Assembly: GCF_901933205.1 (NCBI RefSeq)
Contig: NC_044571.1
Coordinates: forward strand, 9,401,420 to 9,465,419
Origin: Camarhynchus parvulus
Taxonomy: Eukaryota; Chordata; Aves; Passeriformes; Thraupidae
DNA length: 64,000 nt
Direction of reading: 5' to 3'
Program-made: the position numbers and the translations under genes
Notes under the pieces: generated by a model
Databases searched by the model: none
Seen by the model: the letters and a program-made list of their open reading frames with translations, nothing else
What the model was told of the DNA's origin: nothing
In this document: in pieces, positions 3,934-52,975 of the stretch
Layout of the letters: every line of letters begins with the position of its first letter
Position numbering within the stretch: position 1 is the stretch's first letter

Positions 3934-3939
3934 ATTAGA
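3934..3939. repeat. Target-site duplication, left copy
   Basis: ATTAGA directly precedes the left LTR and is repeated at 5261-5266 directly after the right LTR. Six bases is the duplication size expected for alpha- and betaretrovirus-like integrases. Confidence 0.85.
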
Positions 3940-4221
3940 TGTTACCTTATATATTAGGACAGTGCACGGCAACAGTTCTATTATCTTTATGCTGCAAGGA
4001 TCCCATAGCTTCTAAGCTTCAAACCTTCTTAATGCTTCTTGTAGAGCAGCTCCTCTGAGCAGCGACACCTCTGGATCCTTGCAGCAGCCATCTGACTCCT
4101 CTCCTTGCTACACCCTTTTATGGCACTTGTTCTCATTAGTTACAGGTGTTCTTAATCTCTAGTAATTGATCCCAGCTGCAACTCATAGAGGGGTAAGATT
4201 ACATTCTACTGCCCTCCTACA
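3940..4221 (-). repeat. 3' LTR of the miniature retroviral element
   Basis: About 93% identical by eye to 4979-5260. On the minus strand it starts TGTAGGAGGGCAG and ends GGTAACA, so it keeps canonical TG...CA termini. It abuts the polypurine tract on one side and the target duplication on the other. Confidence 0.9.
4114..4123 (-). promoter_or_regulatory. TATA-like / CArG-type box in the 3' LTR
   Basis: The minus strand reads CCATAAAAGG. This fits a TATA box for the LTR promoter and also exactly fits the SRF CArG consensus CC(A/T)6GG. It is unchanged in the other LTR (5153-5162) although the LTRs have diverged about 7%. Confidence 0.5.
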
Positions 4222-4238
4222 ATTCCCCCTTTTCTTTT
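4222..4238 (-). other. Polypurine tract
   Basis: The minus strand reads AAAAGAAAAGGGGGAAT directly before the TG that opens the 3' LTR. This is the position and composition of a plus-strand priming tract. The G-run followed by AAT and TGTAG resembles the avian leukosis virus junction. Confidence 0.85.
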
Positions 4239-4959
4239 AACCACAGAGCTGCAGCTTTTCCAGAAGTATATATTAATATTATGTCATATTTATAGATTTC
4301 ATATAGAGCTATTGGTTATACAAAAGCTCAAGCAGCATATTATCTCAATCTTAATCTTTAGTAACTATTATGTCACATTTATACTTTTCATATAGAGTTA
4401 TGTATAAATATATTTTGAAACAGCAGATTATACTAATTCTTTATGTCACAGCATATGTCACAGTTGAGACTACCACCATACAATTTTAGAAGGCTTTAAA
4501 CATTTACCCAGAGTTTACACTATACCTCATCTGAAGGTTTCAAGCATCTGCCCATACAGAGTAACATCATTGCATTTCACTGGGGATAACATTATATTTG
4601 AAGGTTGAATTTTTTTTTTCCAATAAATTAGTTCTATACCAATACATTTTCCTAATCATATTTCCCAGAATCCACGGGTTTATATAGTCAAATTCAGTAG
4701 TCCAATCCAGTAGTCAAATCCAGCTTCACAATCAGTAAACTATGATGTGCACTTTGTCATTCAATAAAGCTTTCCACGTGGCCAAAATAGTCAGCTATTT
4801 TCCCAGTCGCTCACCTCAAATTAGATGACTGGATTAAGTCCGGACTTCTGCAGCATCTCTGCTGCTTTCAGTCATTATTTAGGGTACCCTTTTCTTTTTT
4901 TCCCTTTTTTTTTTTTTTTTTTTCTTTTTTTTCCTTTTTTATTTTTACCACCTGTTGTA
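4239..4959 (-). other. Interior of the miniature element, no coding capacity
   Basis: Read on the minus strand, the PBS is followed by an A-rich tract (plus-strand T run, about 4890-4947), a short ATG frame of about 13 codons, and a good splice-donor sequence GAG|GTGAGC (GT at 4813-4814) about 145 bases after the PBS. The rest is stop-rich. An imperfect short repeat (about 14 bp, core AGTAGTCAAATCC) occupies 4686-4722. No gag, pol or env similarity was seen. Confidence 0.6.
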
Positions 4960-4977
4960 ATCACGCCGGGGTCACCA
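4960..4977 (-). other. Primer-binding site, tRNA-Trp type
   Basis: The minus strand reads TGGTGACCCCGGCGTGAT. From memory of the avian leukosis/sarcoma group this differs by one base from the PBS complementary to the 3' end of tRNA-Trp. It sits one or two bases after the end of the 5' LTR, as expected. Confidence 0.87.
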
Positions 4978-4978
4978 T

Positions 4979-5260
4979 TCATAGCCTTATATATTAGAAC
5001 AGTGCACAGCAACAGTTCTATTATCATTAAGCTGCAAGGATCCCTTAGCTTCTAAGCTTCATACCTTCTTAATGCTTCTCATGGAGCAGCTCCTCTGAGC
5101 AGTAACACCTCTAGATCCTTGCAGTGGCCATCTGACTCCCCTCTTGCTATACCCTTTTATGGCACTTGTTCTCATTAGTTACAGGTGTTCTTAATTTCTA
5201 GTAATTGATCCCAGCTGCAACTCATGGAGGGGTAAGATTACATTCTACTGCCCCCCTACA
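4979..5260 (-). repeat. 5' LTR of the miniature retroviral element
   Basis: Partner of 3940-4221 with the same length, 282 bp. Its outer end is canonical (TGTAG on the minus strand). The inner end has drifted, so the expected CA is not intact. It would carry the promoter driving minus-strand transcription. Confidence 0.9.
5153..5162 (-). promoter_or_regulatory. TATA-like / CArG-type box in the 5' LTR
   Basis: The same CCATAAAAGG as at 4114-4123. If the element was ever transcribed, this is the likely core promoter. Confidence 0.5.
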
Positions 5261-5266
5261 ATTAGA
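5261..5266. repeat. Target-site duplication, right copy
   Basis: ATTAGA, identical to 3934-3939. Confidence 0.85.
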
Positions 5267-26544: not shown

Positions 26545-26728
26545 TTAAATAGCTCTATCAACTTAGTTTGCCAAAGCAAAAATGGAGAAGAAATGTGATC
26601 ATTTACTAAAGAATATTTAGTGATGATATCTCAGTTTTAAATAGCTCTATCAACTTAGTTTGCCAAAGAAAAAATGGAGAAGAAATGTGACCATTTGCTA
26701 AAGAATATTTAGTGATGATGTCTCAGTT
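26545..26728. repeat. 92-bp tandem duplication
   Basis: 26545-26636 and 26637-26728 are the same 92-base unit in tandem, with about four substitutions between copies. The junction falls within TTAAATAGCTCTATC. It has the look of a simple segmental duplication rather than a transposon. Confidence 0.95.
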
Positions 26729-28530
26729 TTGCTGACCAACATGCATCAAGAGCTAATGGCCAAAAATTTACATCTGAGATTTATTTAATCTTGCATGGAC
26801 TGTCCCAGTAATGAAAACAATAAAACATTGGAAGATCTTACTAGTGAAAAGCATAGACAGAGTCTTGTGAAGGTGAGAACTTGAAATTGCTTCAAAATCT
26901 TATAAATATTTAAAAAGCGTAGATACCTGGTACATCTGCTATATCAGTGAGTCAGATTTAATGAATACATTGATCTCTTTTTGACCTTAGAGTCTTCTTC
27001 CGTCCTGGCCCTTGGAACGAAGAGAATTAGCAACATTTAATTTACAATACTAATAACACTGCTTTTGTATGGTAGTTGTAGCTGAATCTCATCATCAAAT
27101 GCAATACAAATTTATCTTCAGCACATCAAAAGTAATGTTCTGTCTTACACAAGTGTTCAGACTTCTGGAACATCTAAAATTTGCTACAGCAGAGGTAAAG
27201 TTGGCAGGATGGAGATGTTAAATGAGCCAGGTGTAGCATCTTGCTGTTCTTGGTGGTGGCCACGGTGACCATCAGCCTGCAGGCAGCGAGGGAGGGCCCA
27301 GGGAGCTGAGGGCTGGGGGGCACCCCAGGAGCTGTGGACAGTGTGGGATCATTTGGCACATGTCCTGTTATTGTTGATGAGTATATTTGCTTGCAGATTC
27401 CAGTTTTGCGTCTGAGGTCTGGAAATGCTTTAGGTGACTCAGCCTTTTGCGCTTCATTCATGGGTGTCTGTCTGAAATGCGGTGCCTGTGGCAGGGTGAC
27501 AGCTCCCACCACATGGAAAGGGGAGGTGAGAGGCGTCAGGATTGAGGCCAAATTTCTGACTCTGTGCAAGTTCTGACCCTGATAGATGGCCTGAGGCACT
27601 GGCCATCAGCTGATGCTCCTTCTCTCTTGAAGAGTGCAGAGAACTGAAGAAACAAGAAGTTCTATGGCAGCACCATGCAATTGTCTGTAGCTTACATCTT
27701 GGTGTCAGCACAGAGTTGCTCTCTTCTGTTTTCAGTACATAAAATCAGCTAAAAAGAAATACCTGCCTAAATGTTAGGTCTGTACTGCCCCCACCCCAAA
27801 CTCATGCATCGTGTCCCCATGCTCATTTAATTTGCTCAGAATTTTCTGTGGTAAATTATTGCATGTGCTTTCATCTATCTTTTGCCTAATGCTTAATTCT
27901 GATTAGATCGGTGTCTTGATTTGGAACAACACAGGATTTTCCAGTTACATTTACCTTTAGTTTGCTTTGTTATTTCCATGTCTTGATATCCTTAAAGGTG
28001 AAAAATTTCAATATGAAAGCATATCTGCAGATATGTATCTGAAAGTCTTAGAGATAATTGGGTTTAACTCAAGTTTTTAAAAAAGATATTTTAAGTTTAC
28101 CTTTCTACATTGTTGAGACCCATCTCACAACATATTGTTTCTGGATGTGTTTTTTCTCTCAACCTAAAATTCAAAGTGGAGATTGATTAGTTAAATTAAT
28201 CAAGCCAAGTTTTGTGCTGCCCAAGTTTTCTTAAAATTCTTTTGACATGTTATAGCTGAAATCATTTAAGCTTGTACTTTGCTATTAACTAGATTATGAT
28301 TACGTTGTTTATGGAAATAAAAAAATTGAGTAAGTCAATATTTAAAGCCATAAGCCATATTGAAAAAGTCATTCATGTTAAACTCTAGTCCAATTTCAAT
28401 TATTTTAATCACTGTATATCAGTAAAAGAAATACCCATGTTTGAATAGGAGAAGTTATCTAACTGGAAATTTAGAGTCAAATCCTATTGTAGTCCTTACT
28501 CCTCAGTAGTCATTGTGGGTTTCTGGTTGG
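26729..28530 (+). other. CFAP47 intron with a GC-rich island
   Basis: Mostly AT-rich. Between about 27230 and 27711 the base composition jumps to GC-rich and two overlapping open frames occur on the minus strand (27174-27599, 141 codons, and 27454-27711, 85 codons). Their products are Pro/Ser/Thr-rich and match no family I know. An unrecognised repeat, a retrocopy remnant or a regulatory island are all possible. Confidence 0.4.
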
Positions 28531-30579: not shown

Positions 30580-31305
30580 TAAGAATTGCCTGCACAAACC
30601 TCATCGAGTTCAAAAGGCCAAGAGCAAGGTCTTGTACTGGGCTCAGGGCAATCCCAAGCACAAATACAGGTTGGGCAGATCATGGACTGAGAGCAGCTCT
30701 GAGGAGAAGACTCGGTGGTGTTGATGTATCAGACCCAGCTTGTGAGCATTTGCAGCCCACAAAGCCAAACCTGTCCTGGGCTGCACTAAGAGCAGTGTGG
30801 GAGGGAATTCAGCTCCTCTGCTCTGGTGAGACCCCACCTGCAGTGCTGGGTCCAGCTCTGAGATCCACAAATCAGGAAGGATATGAACGTGTTGCAAAGT
30901 CCACAGAAGGCCATGAAGGTCATCCAAGGCTGGAGCACCTCCACTGTGAGGACAGAGAGAGTTGGAGCTCAAGCAGCTTTCCAGTACCTAAAGGAGATAC
31001 AAGAGAGCTGGAGAGGGACTGATGACAGGGCATGTAGTGATTAGTCAAGGGGTAATGACTGCAAACTGAGAGGGAGTAGGTTTAGATGAGATGTAAGGAA
31101 AAGATCCTTTCCTATGACAGTGGTGAGGCCCTGGCAGAGGTTGCCATGAGAAGCTGTGGCTGCCCCATTCCAAGAATTGGCCAAGGCTGGGCTGGATGGG
31201 GTTTTGAAAAACCTGGTGTGGTGGAAGATATCCTTGCCCATGGCAGGGAGGTTGGAATGAGATGCTCTTTAATGTTTTGTCCAACCCAAACAATTCTGTG
31301 ATACT
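30580..31305 (+). mobile_element. CR1 LINE, 5'-truncated (about 725 bp)
   Basis: Contains the end of the reverse transcriptase frame (CACAAACCTCATCGAGTTCA, GGGCAATCCCAAGCACAAAT), then GAGACCCCACCTGCAGTGCT, and the 3' end TTTTGTCCAACCCAAACAAT followed by TCTGTGATA. All open frames here on both strands belong to this dead element. Confidence 0.92.
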
Positions 31306-34300
31306 CCTCAAATTCTTCTCATGCAGAAACGATTTTGCTTTCTAATGGATTTGTAAGTTGTAGATCAGAAACATCACCCTTGCCAACTCTTTGGTGTGTT
31401 TCTTCTCATAGGATTTATTGGCTCAGGGAATAGTTCCCCACAAAAGCCTTGGCAGATCTTTAGAACCTGGGAATCATGCTTTGGGGACTGCAGAAGTAGA
31501 ACCCATCATGGGAGATGGCATTCTGTTTTAAACTTATAGTTGTTTTACAGAGAGGCACAACAGTAAGAAATCTCAGAAAATATGTGTTAATTTTCCCCAG
31601 GCCATGCCTCTTTCCAGCATCTTTCCTTTTTCTGTTTAGTTACTTGAAGGGAACTCACAAGAAATATTCATTGCTGTTAAACTCTCAGTACACAGAAATA
31701 GTGTTTTTAGTCTCTCTGCTGATTGCCGTCACTTACTGCTCCTTCATCTGTATCACACAGCAGTCCTGGAGTGGATGAAATCCACCTGTTTGGGTGTAAT
31801 TTAACTGGAGAATATCTTCCATGTGCTCATTTAATGTTCTTCAACCACTGGTGGAAGTTCAACTTCATGGGAGTGTAACAGCCACTGATAAGCAAAACAC
31901 TGATGGCATTGCACAGTGTGGAGGCTGAGCCCTCACACTGCTCTGCTCTGTCTCCTCCTCCTGTGTCTCACTGCCAGCTGATATGGACAGGTCACAGCAC
32001 CAAATCTGTGTAACCCATCCTGTCATAAAACACTGCAGTGTGGTTATTCTAGCAGGAGTTTGTATTTGGTGGTAACTGCATTAGGTCAATTCACAGATAT
32101 AATGCAGAGATGTTGTTACAAGTGTCACTGGTGTTAGAGAAAAACCAACTTAGAATCTAAATTATGTGTCAATGTCTCCCTTATTATGTTTTTCATTATT
32201 TATTTAAAAGTAAAAAGTGTATAATTAAGAATGTTTTGTAATTATGTAACTTGGCAGTTGAAGACCGTAACACACTGTTTTCATAGCTGTGGTACATTAA
32301 TTATTCATAAATGCTAAGCAAAACTGTAGTCTGAATATTGTCATATATGGCTGAACCTTGGATCATGTTCTCAGAAATTGAGTAACCTGAAGTTGTGAAT
32401 CATGCCTTAAGATTTTTTTTTAATTTCTATCATATGCTTTCATGACAGTTGGTAGTATAAAAAGAACCATGGCAACATGGTTGGTGGGAGGGAAAACAAA
32501 TTTGAGAAGGTAGTAATTATTAATCACTCTAACTAAAAGCAGTTAGGCAAATAATTCAGACCAGAGCATATTTGTATAGCTCATAAAAAAATAAATAAAA
32601 AAAACAAAGGATAATTATTAGAAGTATAAAAATGTGAGTGATTTTTTTTTGATAAATATTTAGCAGCTGCCAACCCCCCCCTCTTGTTCCTACAGATGAA
32701 TAATCAGTTCTCTGATATAAGAGCAGGGAGCTAATGTAGATCACAAAATGACATCTGAGCTGTCACTAACTGCCATGGAACAAAAATGCGAGGTTAGATC
32801 TAAACCAAATAATTAGAGGGGATATTTCATCTGGACAAGTGGTCATATCTATGAAAAATAACGGTTATGTGAAGAAAGTAGGTGGCCCTGAATAAGGAAA
32901 CTACCAATTCCCTAGCCCACAACTGCTGTTGCTCCCCTGGGGCTTAGCAATCAAAACAAGAGCGTTTTTTTCCTCAACCATTACACACAGCAAGTCCGTG
33001 GAAAAAGTTCTTTTTAAGAAAAATTTGCTCACTGATGGCCTGGAGTGCAGATTGAAGTAGGTAGTAAAGTAACATTATTGAAAAGAAAATGTAATGTTTG
33101 AACTCTGTTCCCTGTCATTCTGTCAAGGCTAGGAACTTATACTAGGTTTTTGGCTCAAGACAAAACATGGTTGTATGTACACTCTTAGATTTGGGTGGGG
33201 TTTTTTATATTTCTGTTTGAATTTACTTTTTGATGGTTTTGTCATTTGTTTTTTTGGGGTTTTTTGTTTGTTTTTATTTTTAATAAATAAAAGTGAGAGG
33301 AATGTGAAAGAGAACAGTGTGAATTCGTCTAAAAGATGTAGTTAAGTGTAAATTTTCCGACTATGTTTGGAGGCTCTTAAAAGTAACCTTCTGTGATTTT
33401 TTCTGCAGAAGTCTAACCTTTAAACCTGTCCTGCCATTTTTTAGAGCTGCCAAGAAAACTGGTGCTACTGCACTGTTTTCCCCCCCAGTGATTAATGTGA
33501 CTTGGTGAGAAATCTCTGTTTTCCTTGTGTAAGATGAAGGAAGAGGAGGAAGGGATCTTTATTATTTGTTCAATTCCTATGAAGGTTGTCCATCTGTATA
33601 ACAGAAAGCTCTGTGTTTAAGAGTGTTTTGGCAGGGGTACCACTGCTACCAAAAAATGTACCAATATCCCTGCTTCTCTAAAATAGTATTGCTGTGTTCC
33701 CATGGTCGGAATACTATTTAAAAATTCTGGAGTGAAAGTCAAATAAAATTTTATAATAGCAAATAATATCAAATATTTTTTTATTCAAATCAAATAACAT
33801 TTTAACTAAATTTTTCTGCATGTTAAAGCAGCTAGTTGTTCTTTTCTGCTGGATTTCTATGGACAGTATGCACAGCTTCTGAAACAGCCAGTGATAATTA
33901 AATTAGATCATTGCAATGAGCAACAAGTTAATGCACACATACAAATATTCATAACATCTGAATCAGGAACTTCAAGTAGGTACATAAAGCTAGTTGAGTA
34001 AAGATTTGATTTGAAAACAGGTGCTGTGTTGAAGTTTGAAAAATGCCATTAACTCAGGAATTACTTGGTTTAAATTATGACGTTTTACTGGATGTTTTGA
34101 CTTTAGGCTATAGCTCTACCTATTTTAGATGGTTTGGCCTTCTGAAAAAGTAATCGAGATTTTTCCTCTTCTATTTAAATCAGCATAAGGAGTGACTGTG
34201 TAAATGTGACAATCTCTGACACTTGCTCAAGTCATCAACCTCAGTAGGATGAGGGCCCAGTGTCTGTTACAGTCTGAAGACTTTTCTCCAGCCTTGTAAA

Positions 34301-38588: not shown

Positions 38589-39158
38589 CTTGGCTGCATC
38601 AGTTGCAACGTGGGCAGCAGGTGAGGGGGGGGATTCTGTTCCTCTGCTCTGCTCTGGTGAGACCCCACCTGCAGGGCTGAGTCCAGCTCTGGGGTCCCCA
38701 GCACAGGAAGGACAGGGACCTCTGGGAAATAAATGTCACCAGGATGATTAGAGGGAGCATCTCTCCTATGAGGAAAAAGTGAGAGAATTGGGATTGCTCA
38801 ACCTGGAAAAGAGAAGGCTGCAGGGTGATCTGATTGTGGCCTTCCAGTGCCTTAAAGGAGCCTCCAGGGAAGACAGAGAGAAAGACAAGAGCATGCAGTG
38901 ACAGGACAAGAGAGAATGGACTCAAACTGACAGAGAGTAGATTTAGATTGGATATTAGGGGAAGTTTCTTACTGTGGGGGTGGTGAGGTCCTGGCACAGG
39001 TTCCCTGGAGAAGTTGTGGATGCCCCAACCCTGGGAGTGTTCAAGGCCAGGATGGATGGAGCTCTGAGCAACCTGATCCAGTGGTAGGTGTCCCTGCCCA
39101 TGGAATGAGATGATCTTTAGGGTCTCTTCCAAACCCGAACAGTTCTATAAGTCTCTGA
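38589..39158 (+). mobile_element. CR1 LINE, 5'-truncated (about 570 bp)
   Basis: Starts near CTTGGCTGCATCAGTTGCAA, passes through GAGACCCCACCTGCAGGGCT, and ends GGTCTCTTCCAAACCCGAAC followed by AGTTCTATAAG. A 177-codon minus-strand frame here is only the antisense of CR1. Confidence 0.92.
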
Positions 39159-42100
39159 TCTTCTTCTCCATTGATTCTGCTAATGTAAAAGATTGACTTC
39201 TACATTTTTTAGTAGGGTTGTGAAACTCAACTGGGCTTTGATAAGCCAGCTTACTGTATGAAGTGATTTAGGCAACTGAGCTGCTCACTGGAAGTGCCAA
39301 TCTTCAGTATAGACATTGGGAAGAAATAGCTGTAATTGGTAATTTCTTCTAACACTGCTGAATCTGAGAAGGAAATCTTCCTCAGGATTTGGCTCTCAGG
39401 AGTATGGAGAGTTGCTGAGCTTCAGTCTCCATGGATGCAGAGGTGCCCTTGATTTCAAATTCAAAAAAGTATTCATTAAGATGTGAGCATAGTTATTACT
39501 TTCTCAGTTGTGGGAATTTGGGATGTTAATTTTACTTTGACTCAGTCTGTATCCCCCTCTCAGGTATACTTCTTCTAATTATCTTAAAATAGCACTTCAC
39601 TTAGCATTCCACTCATCTTTGATGAGTTTTGAAAACTCAGCTTTTTACATCTATTTTTACATGTAAATCCAAATATGGGCATATTATTTAGTTCATTAGT
39701 TTTCCTTTATGTGTATAAATTAGTGCAATATCAGTTTGGTATGGGTTGTGGCATATTTTGGTGGAGCTGAGGACATCATAGATCCATTCAGTCGTTAAAT
39801 GTAATGCTTTTTCAGTCTATTCCTTTCCTTCCATTTCAGAAAAATAATTTTTGTAATTGCCTCTTGCAAAACATTGTTTTCCCAGTTTGTTTTCTTGGTA
39901 CAATATGTAGTCCCCGTTAAGAGGTTAACAGTGTGGTAATTTTTAGTCAGGGAACTTAGAATTATTGTAATAACTTATGAACTAATTGTTGCTGTATTCT
40001 GTTCCAGGGCATTATGACTTAGACACTAATGCATATTTCAGCTGAAAGAAATTCAATTCAGTGTGATTTTCCTATGTAAATTTATATGTAAATTTAAACC
40101 TGAAACTCACTGCCCTTTTAGCTTCTGATATTAAATGTTCTGTGCAAATTTTTCCCTTCTAGTTAATTTCCTGTACTGCAATAAGAATGGATTCCTTGCT
40201 AAGCAGGTTTTACAAATATATAATTTGCTTAAGGTGTTTAGTCCTAAATTTCAAGCAGCTCAATCTGCTGTTCTGATAGACTTCACTGCTGATGAACAGT
40301 TGGTGCCTTTTTGAGAGCTGATATTTTATAAGGCAAAATATGCCAAGTAAAATGGGAAAAAAACAGTATCAAGATAATAACAATGCTGTGGTTCTCTAGC
40401 CTCATAACCCGACATGGAAAGGAGAGGATTATCTTGGAAATTCATTTACATCTCAGAGAGAAAAAAAAAAAAAAAAAAGGCAAAAAAAAAAGGAGATTAA
40501 GGAGCTTGTACAGTGAGGGAGATGGTTCACTCCACAAAGATCTCCATTGATTTAGGAGTGAATAGGAAGCCTGAAGGACTCAGTCCCTCAGGACAGGGGT
40601 GTTGTGAATGATGAGTGCCAGAAAGGCCCAGCTGAGCGTGGGCATGCGTGTCTGGGTTGGGGGTGTGTGGGGAAAAAGGTGGTGAGGCGTGACCTGCTGA
40701 CACTTTGCATCAGGCACTTCAAGAGCCAGAACTGATTTCTAGAAGTAGTTTGACCAAACTGGGCTGAGCTCTGTTGAACATGGCCCTGAAACTGTTCTCA
40801 ATTGCTGCTGCTCAATTCACTGGAACCTCTTTTGTTCCAAGAAGCAGAAACGAGTTAATAATGAGAATACAGCAGGAGACTCTAACTCCTGCTACTGACA
40901 TGTAGACACTGATGGGGATCTTGAAAGCTCTGGTCATTTTAAGCCTATGGAAGAGAGAAGCCAAGATCTGTTTTTTCAACAATACTGCCACCATTCCAAG
41001 TTCAGTCCTTGTGCGAGCAACATTCCTGCTTGTCAGGTACAGCACAGAGAAAGAAGGCCCTTGATACTTGTCCATCTAGAAGAACCATGATTTGGACAAG
41101 GACCCACAAAGGGAAGATTTTCTGCTGCATTATCTCACTAGGCCTATAAAAACAACTTTCCTGCTGCTTACTCAACTTGAAAATTTGCTTCTATAGTCAC
41201 AACCTGGCAAACTCGGGAGCAAATCCAAATGCTTTCACCTCAAGGTCTATGGATTTGAAAAAGCTTCAAACAATGTGGAATGAATGCCATCTCCTTAATG
41301 AAATTTAATTTTAATTTAAAACAATTCTTCTAAATAATAAAAATTGTAGTCAGTCTCTTAGACACTTTGGCCAGGCAGGGTTTTTATTGACACCTGCTGA
41401 TGGTGAGAATAGGATTATTATTGAAGATGGAACCCAGAGAATTGTTATGCACAGTAACTGTAGAATGTGTCCATCTTCCTGCAAATTACCTTGTTGAACT
41501 TAGAAGAGGATTAGTTGATATTTCAATGCAGTGTATACATTAATAAAAGTAAAATTCCATATTATGGACTTAAATAAATTAGATCCAATTGCTCAAAGAA
41601 GGAAATAGAGAAAGGAATGGTGAGAAAGTTTAGGCAAAAAATATGTCAGGAAAATATTTCAACAAACTAGTATAATATCACAAATGATCAATTGAGCATC
41701 TTTTGAAACAAGAGTCTGGTTTACAAAGTATCAAACCTATGCATAGACTTAGGCTGTTAATGTAGGATCGAGTGTTAGCAGTCCATTGTTTTTTCAATTT
41801 CCATAGAGAATAAATGTTAGCTCCTATTTACATTTCATTTTATTTAATTTTAACTCTGGTGAGATTATTTTAAATAACCTGAACTGTACAAGAATTGGGT
41901 AATTGAAAGTTCTAAAGGAATAATAGCATGACATATAGTACAAAAGTGCCTCTATTTTGGTCACTGGCAGCCTTGATATAAGAAATGTTTGAGGAAAGAG
42001 ATTAATTTCCTTCTTTTCTCAACTTTCACATTTCTCCTCTATCAAAATGTTTATAAAATACTCAGCACTGAAATGTGGAACTAAATTAATGACTATAAAT

Positions 42101-46726: not shown

Positions 46727-49700
46727 GTGAGTAGTTCGTGGTGCTGGACTGGGTCTCTGCTTTTAGGTATCATGGATAACATATGAAGAGTTGAAACTCA
46801 GAATAGTGCTCTATGGCTGCTGTAGTAGATTGCAGAATATTTTTTAGATATATTTGAAGGTAGGTGAAATACTCTTTACAGAAAAATAATTGAAATGAAA
46901 TTTTAGCCTCTATGTAAACTTCCTCTGAATCATTTTTGTAGAAATCATTCTAACAATACTGCAGAATGTAAGTACCCAGATCCATTGTACAGAGCTCTGT
47001 AGGTTTGCTTTATTTTCTGTTTCTTTCCTTCTCTCTAAACTAGGAATTTACTGATAATCCTGCTTTACAAATGCTTGTATACCAGTTAGCAGTGTCTTTT
47101 AACCTCTCAATAAATGGCAAAATAATGCAACTTCTGTCCTGCAGGCCCTGGTTGTAGACATAGTTGAAACACTGCAAGTGTTAAGAAAATGGATGCCTTA
47201 GAGAAATTAACCCAATTATTACCATCCTTCAACAAAATTTCAATGTGCATTTTGACAGCATAATGTTCAGTTCAGTTCTAACTTTCAAGACATAAACTAA
47301 AAATTTGAAGAGAAGACTTTGAAGAATGCCAAAACTTCAGCAGTGCTTTTCCTCATATTACCTCCACTTCCTAATAGTTTCTGTGGACACACTGCTCTTC
47401 TGCATGCTAAATTCCACTTCATTGTATCTTTGACTAAATCTGTAGTGACTATACATTACAGACTGAGCAGAAATGTTATTAGAGAGCACAACATGAAATT
47501 TTACCTGATTAAATTTTTGTGAGTGAGCAGAATATATGCTGCTGTTCAAATATGATGCACAGACTGAAGATAACTGACAATGCCTTTCTTATTATGTTCC
47601 AAAGGAAAAAAGTGCTATTTCCTGGCTTTTACTTTAAAATTCTGGGCTGACTGGAGTAAAAACCATAATTTTTCTCTACTATGTAGGCTCTTGCTATTAG
47701 GAATTAGGAATTACTTAAAACCTTTTTATTCAGACTTTCTGGCACTCATAATTTTCTCTGACATGCACTGCCTGAAAACTACATGCACAAATGGTCTAGT
47801 GGAAAATGGCAAGTCATCCTCTCCTACTGCAAGTAAAATGGATGTGGGAAAAGATTAGTTCCATTAACTACAACTCTTCCTGTTAAAACTCCTGTCTAAA
47901 ACTCCTCAAAGCCCATGCTTTATTTTTGTCAGTTGAGATTTCCTTTCCCTTTACAAGTACTGCATGCTGTAGTTCCTATGCATTTGTAAATATGTGGGGG
48001 AACACTGTGTCCAGTTCTGGACAGTTTTGGGCTCCATGGTACAAGAAAGTCAAGGAGCTACTGGAGAAGGTCCAGCAGAGGCCACAGGAATGAGGAGCAG
48101 TCTGGAGCATCTCTCTTATGAGGAGAGACTGTGAGAGCTGTGCCTCTTTAGGCTGGAGAGGAGAAGGCTGGGAGGGCATCTCATCAACACATATAAATAG
48201 CACAAAGTGGGTGTCAAGAGAATGGTGCCAGGCTCTTTTTGGTGGTGTCCAGCAGTGTCAGCATAATGTCATCAGCACTCTTGTTGAAGTGCAAAGTGTT
48301 GGACAATGGCAGTCAGTGATGCCATTGAGGTTACTGGGAATTTCTCTGCCTCATGAAAAGTGAGACAGTCCAAGTAAATTGGCTGCATTAATGTATGTTG
48401 AATATATAAAGGCAGTGCAGCTTGACATCTGTGTATTGCCTAAGAAAGATATCAGTCTGGGAGTCTTTTGAATGGATGTACTTCTTTGCTATGTATCCAG
48501 TGATGTGAACTGTAAACATCATCAAATGTTTGAAGCATTTCTGGTTTGGTGAAGATTTGTATTTTTTAACAGATTTACTGTTGTTCTACCCCTTTTTCCC
48601 TGAATGCAGAAGAAACATTAGCATATGAATATAAGAATAATGTTTTTCATTGTGTCCTCACTGTATTCTTTCTTCTATTGATCTGAAAAAATTCGGTATT
48701 TGTGTCCTTAAAACATTACCTGGAATTGGATTAGGGCCAAGATCCCACTGATAACTTAGAATCAATTTCTAACTAATTCTTGAGAGAAAAAAAAAAAGGC
48801 AGCAATTTATCCTTTAGTCCTTCTTCATATTCCCTAAAATTCTGGGGCTATCACAGTCAGATCTGCCTTTTGTTTCTGTCAAGGTAGATTTAACACATCC
48901 CTTAGCATATGTCTCTAGGGAGGGAAACCTTCTCCCTGATATTTTTCATCTTTCCTTATCCATCCTGTTATGGGCTCCACAGTGGAGTCATTGAAGATGA
49001 GTCAGTTGAATGATGCTCACAGTGATCTGGAATTTACTGCCACATGCAACAATTTTTCCAGCATAGCCATCGTAGTCAGTCTGTGTGGGGTGGCAGGATT
49101 TTGATGAGCTGAAGAATCTCTAACAGTCGAGTAATTCCTGAAATTTCAGATATTCCAACTTAGTTTTCCCTTTGGCAAAGTATTACATATGAAGGAGACC
49201 AGGCAAAAAAAAAAAAGTAGAGAGGGTAAATGTGAAAAATGGGAATTATCAAGTGAGTCTGAAGTTCCTGTGTGAAAGTTCCATAATATTTCTTTACTCT
49301 CAGGTTTTGAGACTCAATGATACAATGCTCTGACAGTGTTAGAATCAATTCTGGTGCTCACTGCTGGGGATTTGTGCCACTGCATGGGTTGGAAGGAATC
49401 CACCTGTGAACAGGTTTTAGGGGCTGAAGTTACAGTCATGAAGCTGGACTGAAATATCTACTGAATGTTGCTTTTTATATTTTCTTTTTCCTTACTGATT
49501 TAGCTATGATTAACAGACTAATTTTTTCCAGATGATAAATATGTGCAGCAATCTGGCAGTTGACCTGCCACTCCTTTCACTAGAGAGAATATCCATTAGG
49601 AGATAAATTACAGCAAAACCAATATATGTATCTCATTTTTCAAAATTTTCTTATTTACTGTTTTCACTTATTCACCTTGAACCTCTTCTCTGTGTCCCTT

Positions 49701-52436: not shown

Positions 52437-52975
52437 TTATCACAGAATCACAGAATGATTGGGGTGGAGACTATCTAATCCAACCCCTTGGTGAAGCAGG
52501 TTCAGCCAGAGAAGGTTGCACAGGATCACCTCCGGGCAGGTTTTGAATATCTCCAGAGATGGAGACTCCACAGCTTCTCTGGGCAGCCTGTTCCAGTGCT
52601 CGGTCACCCTCACAGGAAAGAAGTTTTTCTCCATACTGAGATAGAACTTCCTGTCACTGGGCAACACTTGAAGGAGTTTGGCATTTGCCCTTATGATACT
52701 TGTACACGTTGATGAGGTGCCCTCTCAGTTGTCTCTTGTCCAGACTGAACAGGCCCAGCTCCCGCTGTTTCTCCTCATTAGAGATGCTCCAGACCCATAA
52801 TCTCTTTTGTGGCCTCTGCTGGACCCTCTCCAGCAATTCCTTGTCTTTCTTGGACTGGGGAGCTCAGAATTGGACACAGCACTCCACATGTTTTTGCTTC
52901 TCCTGAATAGTTTGCATGCTAGGCTTAGTACCTCCACACAACACTGCATTCAGTTTCCAGAAGATTACTGCTTAT
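52437..52975 (-). mobile_element. CR1 LINE, 5'-truncated (about 540 bp)
   Basis: Begins with the reversed terminal repeat (TCACAGAATCACAGAATGAT), then CAGCCTGTTCCAGTGCTCGG and TGGCCTCTGCTGGACCCTCT. The order is that of a minus-strand CR1. It is the best-preserved CR1 copy in the window. Confidence 0.95.

Follow-up and report, generated by a model that had tools for sequence, protein, structure and literature searches.

A 64,000-nucleotide stretch of the Camarhynchus parvulus genome (hereafter the window, located on contig C1) contains a gene-less LTR element that very probably belongs to a small non-autonomous, TRIM-like family of LTR retroelements, now dead or dormant. The family was presumably mobilised by a helper, and the interior of the window's subfamily apparently gained sequence from contig C4.

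Structure and coding content of the element

The element reads in the sense of the minus strand and spans positions 5260 down to 3940 of the window (1321 bp). It comprises the following parts:

5261..5266 (no strand): target-site duplication, right copy, ATTAGA
4978..5260 (minus): 5' LTR, 283 bp, TGTAGG start
4960..4977 (minus): primer binding site (PBS) of what we take to be the tRNA-Trp type, abutting the 5' LTR
4222..4238 (minus): polypurine tract (PPT) AAAAGAAAAGGGGGAAT, abutting the 3' LTR
3940..4221 (minus): 3' LTR, 282 bp, ending in ...GGTAACA
3934..3939 (no strand): target-site duplication, left copy, ATTAGA

A 280-bp repeat inside the window was far above chance (E ~6e-117), and the structure of the element was seen again elsewhere in the host genome. 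The two LTRs were identical at 260 of 281 aligned bases, with 3 gap columns (K2P 0.080), and 16 of the 21 differences were transitions. With neutral rates assumed at four values from 1.2e-9 to 4e-9 per site per year, which we take to be the range for birds, this divergence amounts to 33 to 10 million years. The PBS agreed at 17 of 18 bases with the 18-mer that we take to be the tRNA-Trp reference, and copy L004 agreed at 18 of 18. A stretch of 9 bp (ACATCTAAT in sense) occurs at both flanks, in part within the end of the 3' LTR, so that the window copy alone allows a duplication of 5 or 6 bp; a length of 6 bp agrees with the other loci. A TATA-like CATAAAAGG was noted by eye in the LTR.

The Pfam scan covered 10 of the 12 listed stop-to-stop stretches of the interior (32–75 aa) and gave no match above a family's curated cut-off, the two weak hits (E 0.019 and 0.075) being at the level of chance; the sole coding remnant in the interior is a 33-bp scrap of gag. 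Scanning the window with Rfam at gathering scores and for tRNA genes gave 0 matches, as did exact patterns for the LTR, the PBS and the PPT junction in the viral contig collection (0 each) and the exact-pattern scan of the genome contig collection. The first-pass annotation had described a pair of 282-bp LTRs around a gene-free interior of 757 bp. The pairing and the absence of Pfam matches in the stretches scanned hold, but the LTRs measure 283 bp (5') and 282 bp (3') and the interior 756 bp. The tRNA-Trp-type PBS, the PPT and the 6-bp duplication that it had listed were all found in place.

Elsewhere in the window, a 94-bp unit is repeated in tandem at 26545-26730 (two copies, 96% identical), two 0.55-kb stretches (30791-31320 and 38616-39168) are 65% alike and probably represent an old dispersed repeat, and an inverted repeat pair (48022-48188 and 52708-52872) shows 77% identity over 167 bp. 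At 52439-52456 there is a CR1-like tail, assigned by a motif that we take to be characteristic of CR1; this tail and the size of the genome are in keeping with a bird.

Copies with the same interior

The genome searched comprised 1.05 Gb in 1343 contigs. The whole element as query gave 1018 first-look candidates, of which the best 40 were scored, by a ranking that favours query-like copies; this gave at least 44 matches, and 30 loci were fetched. Five of those 30 carried a related interior between two LTRs:

L001, contig C1: the window element, two LTRs
L002, contig C3: two-LTR copy
L003, contig C14: two-LTR copy, 3' LTR cut
L004, contig C1105 (a 5.4-kb contig): two-LTR copy
L027, contig C1 at 2.78 Mb: two-LTR copy, more diverged

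LTR sequence alone was present at 23 of the 30 fetched loci. L005 and L030 (C5:195522-196197) are one rearranged place, where two partial copies lie head to head and are joined within the interior. At L025 (C2:83.918 Mb) a partial LTR directly precedes a full LTR, and a duplication, CTAATA, encloses both.

When the 5' half of the interior served as query, with 11 of 11 candidates scored, it was complete or nearly complete in L001-L004 and L027 only, in L027 as two blocks (1-180 and 198-253 of 290). Five further loci contained the leader alone, together with gag-like frames. The first-pass annotation had proposed this genome search with the interior, and had left open a TRIM-like mobile family or a private deletion, looking to a unique interior as evidence against the former. 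At least four copies share the interior, and L001-L004 have the same internal junction within unrelated flanks. The mobile family agrees with this and with the separate target duplications of the copies whose ends are readable; the private deletion conflicts with the finding of the same interior and internal junction at three sites besides the window.

Independent insertion and age of the copies

Of 27 loci with readable ends, 24 had target duplications of at least 5 of 6 bases (19 exact), whereas 5000 flank shuffles gave 1.0 such loci on average and never more than 7; this count leaves out L003, whose 3' LTR is cut, and the rearranged L005/L030. By kind, the duplication was present in 4 of 4 two-LTR copies (exact in L001, L004 and L027, where it reads TGAAGC, and 5 of 6 in L002) and at 20 of 23 single-LTR loci. 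The three misses were L006 and L026, with 4 of 6 bases each, and L008, with 3 of 6 in register and, by eye, a CCCTG repeat shifted by one base. For the five two-LTR copies, 1 kb of flanking DNA gave no between-copy blastn match at E 1e-5; the two flanks of L003 matched one another.

K2P distances in L001-L004 were 0.074-0.102 for the interior between copies and 0.062-0.087 for the LTRs within a copy. Since the two ranges are close, these four copies appear to be of about one age and to derive from one short template. The interior of L027 was much further away from the other copies (0.226-0.255), with its own LTR pair at 0.069, measured with LTR ends some 9 bp off. A divergent interior between similar LTRs suggests that gene-less lineages had split well before these insertions, barring very error-prone reverse transcription. 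The LTR tree was star-like: good support was reached by 3 of its 29 inner branches, and the bootstrap had not settled. Short copies were not set apart from single LTRs in it (185 of 500 shuffles were as low), so that the tree is silent on the former interior of the single LTRs.

Composition of the interior and related short elements

Between PBS and 3' LTR, the interior is made up of several parts (all on the minus strand):

4817-4810 (minus): splice-donor-like GAGGTGAG, by eye
4798..4916 (minus): leader homologous to the pre-gag leader of loci L066-L070, 78-82%
4760..4792 (minus): gag scrap, 33 bp, matching codons near the gag start of L067, L068 and L070
4642..4693 (minus): short core, partly common to the L027 and group B interiors
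4572..4648 (minus): segment matching C4:36994840-36994916 (minus), 88% identical, with a 3-nt overlap (TGC) with the neighbouring segment
4444..4579 (minus): final ~136 bp of the group C LTR family, stopping at the terminal CA
4396..4574 (minus): segment matching C4:37006220-37006397 (minus), 90% identical; it comprises the end of another LTR family and ~48 bp beyond
4277..4401 (minus): two degenerate copies of an ~89-bp unit, with 36-bp cores (4277-4312 and 4366-4401) 89% identical
4222..4343 (minus): 3' module, 122 bp, present whole or in part in E copies, L027 (103 bp of the module) and group B

In L069 a 43-bp match overlaps the 33-bp gag scrap; the gag ATG is absent from the element.

Searching with the 3' half of the interior, for which the best 40 of 183 candidates were scored, also gave matches to a second set of short elements among the scored candidates (group B: L037-L039, L041, L043, L046, L049). 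Their interiors are 336-488 bp long at the five places with both ends visible; at L041 just the 3' end is visible. The group B PBS has 2-3 mismatches to the 18-mer taken as reference, the PPT is similar, and the LTRs are ~67-75% like the window LTR, some loci having one LTR cut short. What group B and the window element have in common is a core within 4693-4642 and, of the 122 bp that precede the 3' LTR, the greater part. L038 and L039 (C5:4.168-4.170 Mb) form one group B tandem array with three LTRs and two interiors of ~490 bp, at a spacing of 833 bp. Group C (L040, L042, L044, L045, L047, L048 and L050-L060) is another LTR family, of ~380-400 bp, with the form TGTAGGCACACAG...TGACA and mostly present as single LTRs; at L059 a PPT directly precedes the LTR.

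An 18-mer across the PPT/LTR junction (at most 1 mismatch) occurred at 66 places in the genome, 34 of them exact, while its reversed control occurred at 11, so several LTR families here seem to use the same end. An open frame that extends through the PPT into the LTR (ending in ..GEL, or ..GGL in L004) was rejected as a gene and taken as a by-product of the PPT; it stays open for 23-33 codons in the E-type rows (L001-L005), 32 codons in L027 and just 1-6 codons in the group B rows.

Apparent host sequence in the interior

Two adjoining parts of the interior match one locus on contig C4. Element positions 613-689 correspond to C4:36994840-36994916 (88%) and positions 687-865 to C4:37006220-37006397 (90%), both on the minus strand and 11.3 kb apart. 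By our own estimate, the chance that both places fall at random within 11.4 kb in this genome is ~2e-5. The group C LTR is nearly whole at the C4 locus, whereas the element has its tail alone, which makes C4 the donor side. The two pieces stand in the element in an order reversed relative to C4 on either strand, and they overlap by TGC, a 3-nt microhomology. In L002, L003 and L004, too, the alignment runs unbroken across the junction, with small deletions elsewhere; in L027 and group B there was no match spanning both pieces.

From these matches, ~250 bp of the interior were apparently captured from one C4 locus. Template switching of the reverse transcriptase (RT) onto cellular RNA would be the simplest account; a rearrangement of the C4 locus itself, explaining the swapped order, is possible.

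Gene-bearing proviruses that share the leader

The leader, about 95-120 bp, is common to five loci (L066-L070). It is homologous in all five, at most over element positions 345-463, and collinear towards the gag start; four of them have a gag frame starting MGNNLS or MGNLS and match the 33-43 bp gag scrap, which points to a class II derivation; at L066 the visible gag frame begins later. The five loci are alike across 0.9-2 kb of the gag region. L070 has a PBS with one mismatch, and none was found within 5 mismatches in the other four. A Pfam scan of gag regions, covering pieces of L066, L069 and L070, identified Gag_p24 in L066 (E 2e-12) and, below the cut-off, Gag_p10 in L070; a second piece of the L066 gag region gave no Pfam match, and a gag piece gave no match in PDB at E 0.01. 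At L069:308-829, ~0.8 kb upstream of the gag start, a stop-to-stop frame matches Pfam Avian_gp85 (E 8e-14) and is probably the env of another element.

The 3' ends were seen for two of these proviruses, both with the PPT/LTR junction (2 mismatches on C8 and 1 on C894). On C8 a 3' LTR lies 6-7 kb downstream, preceded by GAAAGGGGGAATTGTAAG, and is like the 5' LTR at 305 of 348 aligned bases (K2P 0.137). On C894 the leader and the junction AAAAGGGGGAATTGTGGG are ~6.6 kb apart, the junction being downstream, which gives a provirus of ~7.4 kb as judged from the positions. In Pfam, the pieces matched in one of the five proviruses were Gag_p24, RVT_1, RVT_thumb, RNase_H, Integrase_Zn and IN_DBD_C; the RT, RT thumb, RNase H and integrase domains are those of C894, in broken frames. 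Among the best 60 of 200 matches, the RT piece of C894 was closest to 7sr6 (188 bits), presumably the HERV-K RT, followed by HIV (77 bits), and no alpharetroviral RT was listed among those 60; its integrase piece scored 58 bits with 3jca/7usf, presumably the MMTV integrase, against 37 bits with RSV integrase. By these nearest matches the leader relatives look betaretrovirus-like, and L066-L070 look like class II ERVs of this kind, with the pol evidence coming from one provirus. The alpharetroviral affiliation proposed in the first-pass annotation is not borne out by these gag-bearing relatives, which were the object of the comparison because the element itself is gene-less.

No blastn match (E up to 5) was found between the window LTR and the 600-bp stretch upstream of and reaching the leader in L066-L070. 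The sole dated partner copy, on C8, is older than the insertions of the short element. Given its age and the dissimilar LTRs, no provirus found here need be the actual helper. The RNAalifold fold of the leader had 17 pairs, 0 of them changed on both sides, and therefore neither supports nor excludes a packaging structure.

Proposed origin and alternative explanations

We propose that a master element lost all genes but kept the LTR pair, the PBS, the 3' end with the PPT and, from a betaretrovirus-like class II ERV, the leader as far as the start of gag. Its RNA would have been transcribed from the LTR, packaged via the leader and primed by tRNA-Trp, with Gag and Pol supplied in trans by a betaretrovirus-like ERV for packaging, reverse transcription and integration. 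The window subfamily may then have gained its ~250 bp from C4 when RT switched template onto a co-packaged cellular RNA, and the C4-carrying master produced several insertions in quick succession, as the divergences show. Single-LTR loci with their own duplication would be two-LTR insertions reduced by LTR-LTR recombination, the usual explanation. Against a family speaks that close two-LTR copies are few, with four found. We also consider, tentatively, a more specific version: a TRIM-size parasite of a betaretrovirus-like ERV, with an LTR body unrelated to that of its helper, gene-less subfamilies (E, L027 and group B) and, in one of these, capture from a host locus. Mobilisation would then need nothing beyond the PBS, a short leader and the PPT/LTR ends. 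One C4 piece consists of an LTR tail with its flank and the other lies downstream, as might be expected from an LTR-started read-through RNA, and the swapped order would fit if synthesis, on reaching the 5' end of that RNA, jumped to a site further downstream.

That a single provirus lost its interior at the window locus seems extremely improbable: internally deleted ERVs are common in general, and the leader and gag scrap do reveal a gene-bearing ERV ancestry, but the same interior and junction lie at three further sites within other flanks, and L002 (5/6), L004 (6/6) and the diverged L027 (exact TGAAGC) have duplications of their own. There is hardly more room for segmental duplications of one deleted provirus spreading without independent retrotransposition. 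Full copies are indeed few, L005/L030 on C5 consists of rearranged head-to-head partial copies and L003 lacks a readable duplication; between copies, however, the flanks gave no match, and each of the four copies readable at both ends has a duplication different from the others'.

A long provirus family with the window LTR, lost or unseen, might have made most of the insertions and left the short form as a minor by-product, which we regard as unlikely. It would suit the excess of single LTRs over two-LTR copies (23 to 5 in the 30 fetched loci, two of which are rearranged), the single LTRs that retain no trace of their interior, and the LTR tree, in which short copies do not stand apart; moreover, with the best 40 of 1018 candidates scored and query-like copies favoured, a long provirus with this LTR may be missed. 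Yet among the 44 listed matches no same-strand pair lay less than 20 kb apart except the L027 pieces (touching or overlapping LTR pieces of L025 are left out of this count), and the breakpoints are identical in four insertions, so the short form itself served as template; a long parent could have made some of the single LTRs. Derivation from an avian alpharetrovirus is, in our view, very unlikely. The tRNA-Trp PBS, the TGTAG start and the 6-bp duplication are alpharetroviral features, all of them present in the element, and the Avian_gp85-like frame near L069, probably another element's, could be added to them; but the leader homologues have Gag_p24 and a sub-threshold Gag_p10, and the nearest matches given above, of the integrase and, among the best 60 of 200, of the RT, lie on the betaretroviral side.

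Comparison with known elements

Mouse ETn (with MusD) and VL30 are non-autonomous ERVs mobilised in trans, and by their general description they resemble the element as gene-less or gene-poor ERV relatives leaning on a related ERV. ETn is class II, several kb long, and has LTRs in common with MusD; unlike this pair, the element is 1.3 kb long and the body of its LTR is unrelated to that of the candidate partner. With L066-L070 the element has in common the leader (all five), the gag scrap (four), the PBS type (L070) and the PPT/LTR junction (C8 and C894), but these loci have gag and pol pieces and a dissimilar LTR sequence.

The TRIMs of plants, an ant and taeniid worms likewise consist of a short LTR pair, PBS and PPT without genes, with their own 4-6 bp target duplications and single LTRs, and the family trait of multiple copies with a shared interior is found here, though full copies are few. 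At 1,321 bp the element lies above the limit of <1,000 bp in the available part of PMC4717578 and below that of <4 kb in the available part of PMC4558846. The tandem TRIMs described in the former part resemble the group B array with three LTRs and two interiors. According to the part available of PMC4558846 (2015), a mobilising candidate had been identified for no TRIM. Unlike TRIMs, the element has a retroviral leader and a likely partner that can be named.

In chicken, ART-CH (~3 kb) is set apart from the element, by description, through its ties to the EAV/alpharetroviral group. It agrees with EAV-HP at 97% in R and U5 but has a distinct U3, in the part available of PMC4607243, so that by this description it is, like the element, an avian LTR element of mosaic history. 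The available parts of further bird ERV sources mention a large proportion of duck ERV sequences of <4,000 bp (PMC11067759) and solo LTRs as most copies of a finch ERV (PMC6523648). A miniature gene-less ERV family in birds is not described in the available parts of PMC5006616, PMC4607243, PMC1224870, PMC11067759, PMC6523648, PMC11009239 and PMC4992247, and no title on a bird TRIM appeared among the 12-20 rows shown per literature listing, often out of hundreds or thousands of papers; the LTR may already be named in Repbase/Dfam.

The kind of element looks known (TRIM-like), and the window element looks to add a bird family with a probable partner and apparently captured host DNA. Miniature LTR elements have been reported mostly from plants and from few animals. 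With partner candidates in the same genome and little beyond cis signals in common, the minimum that a class II ERV requires for mobilising an RNA in trans becomes testable, and the shared C4 capture may preserve, in datable form, an RNA template switch in a bird germ line.
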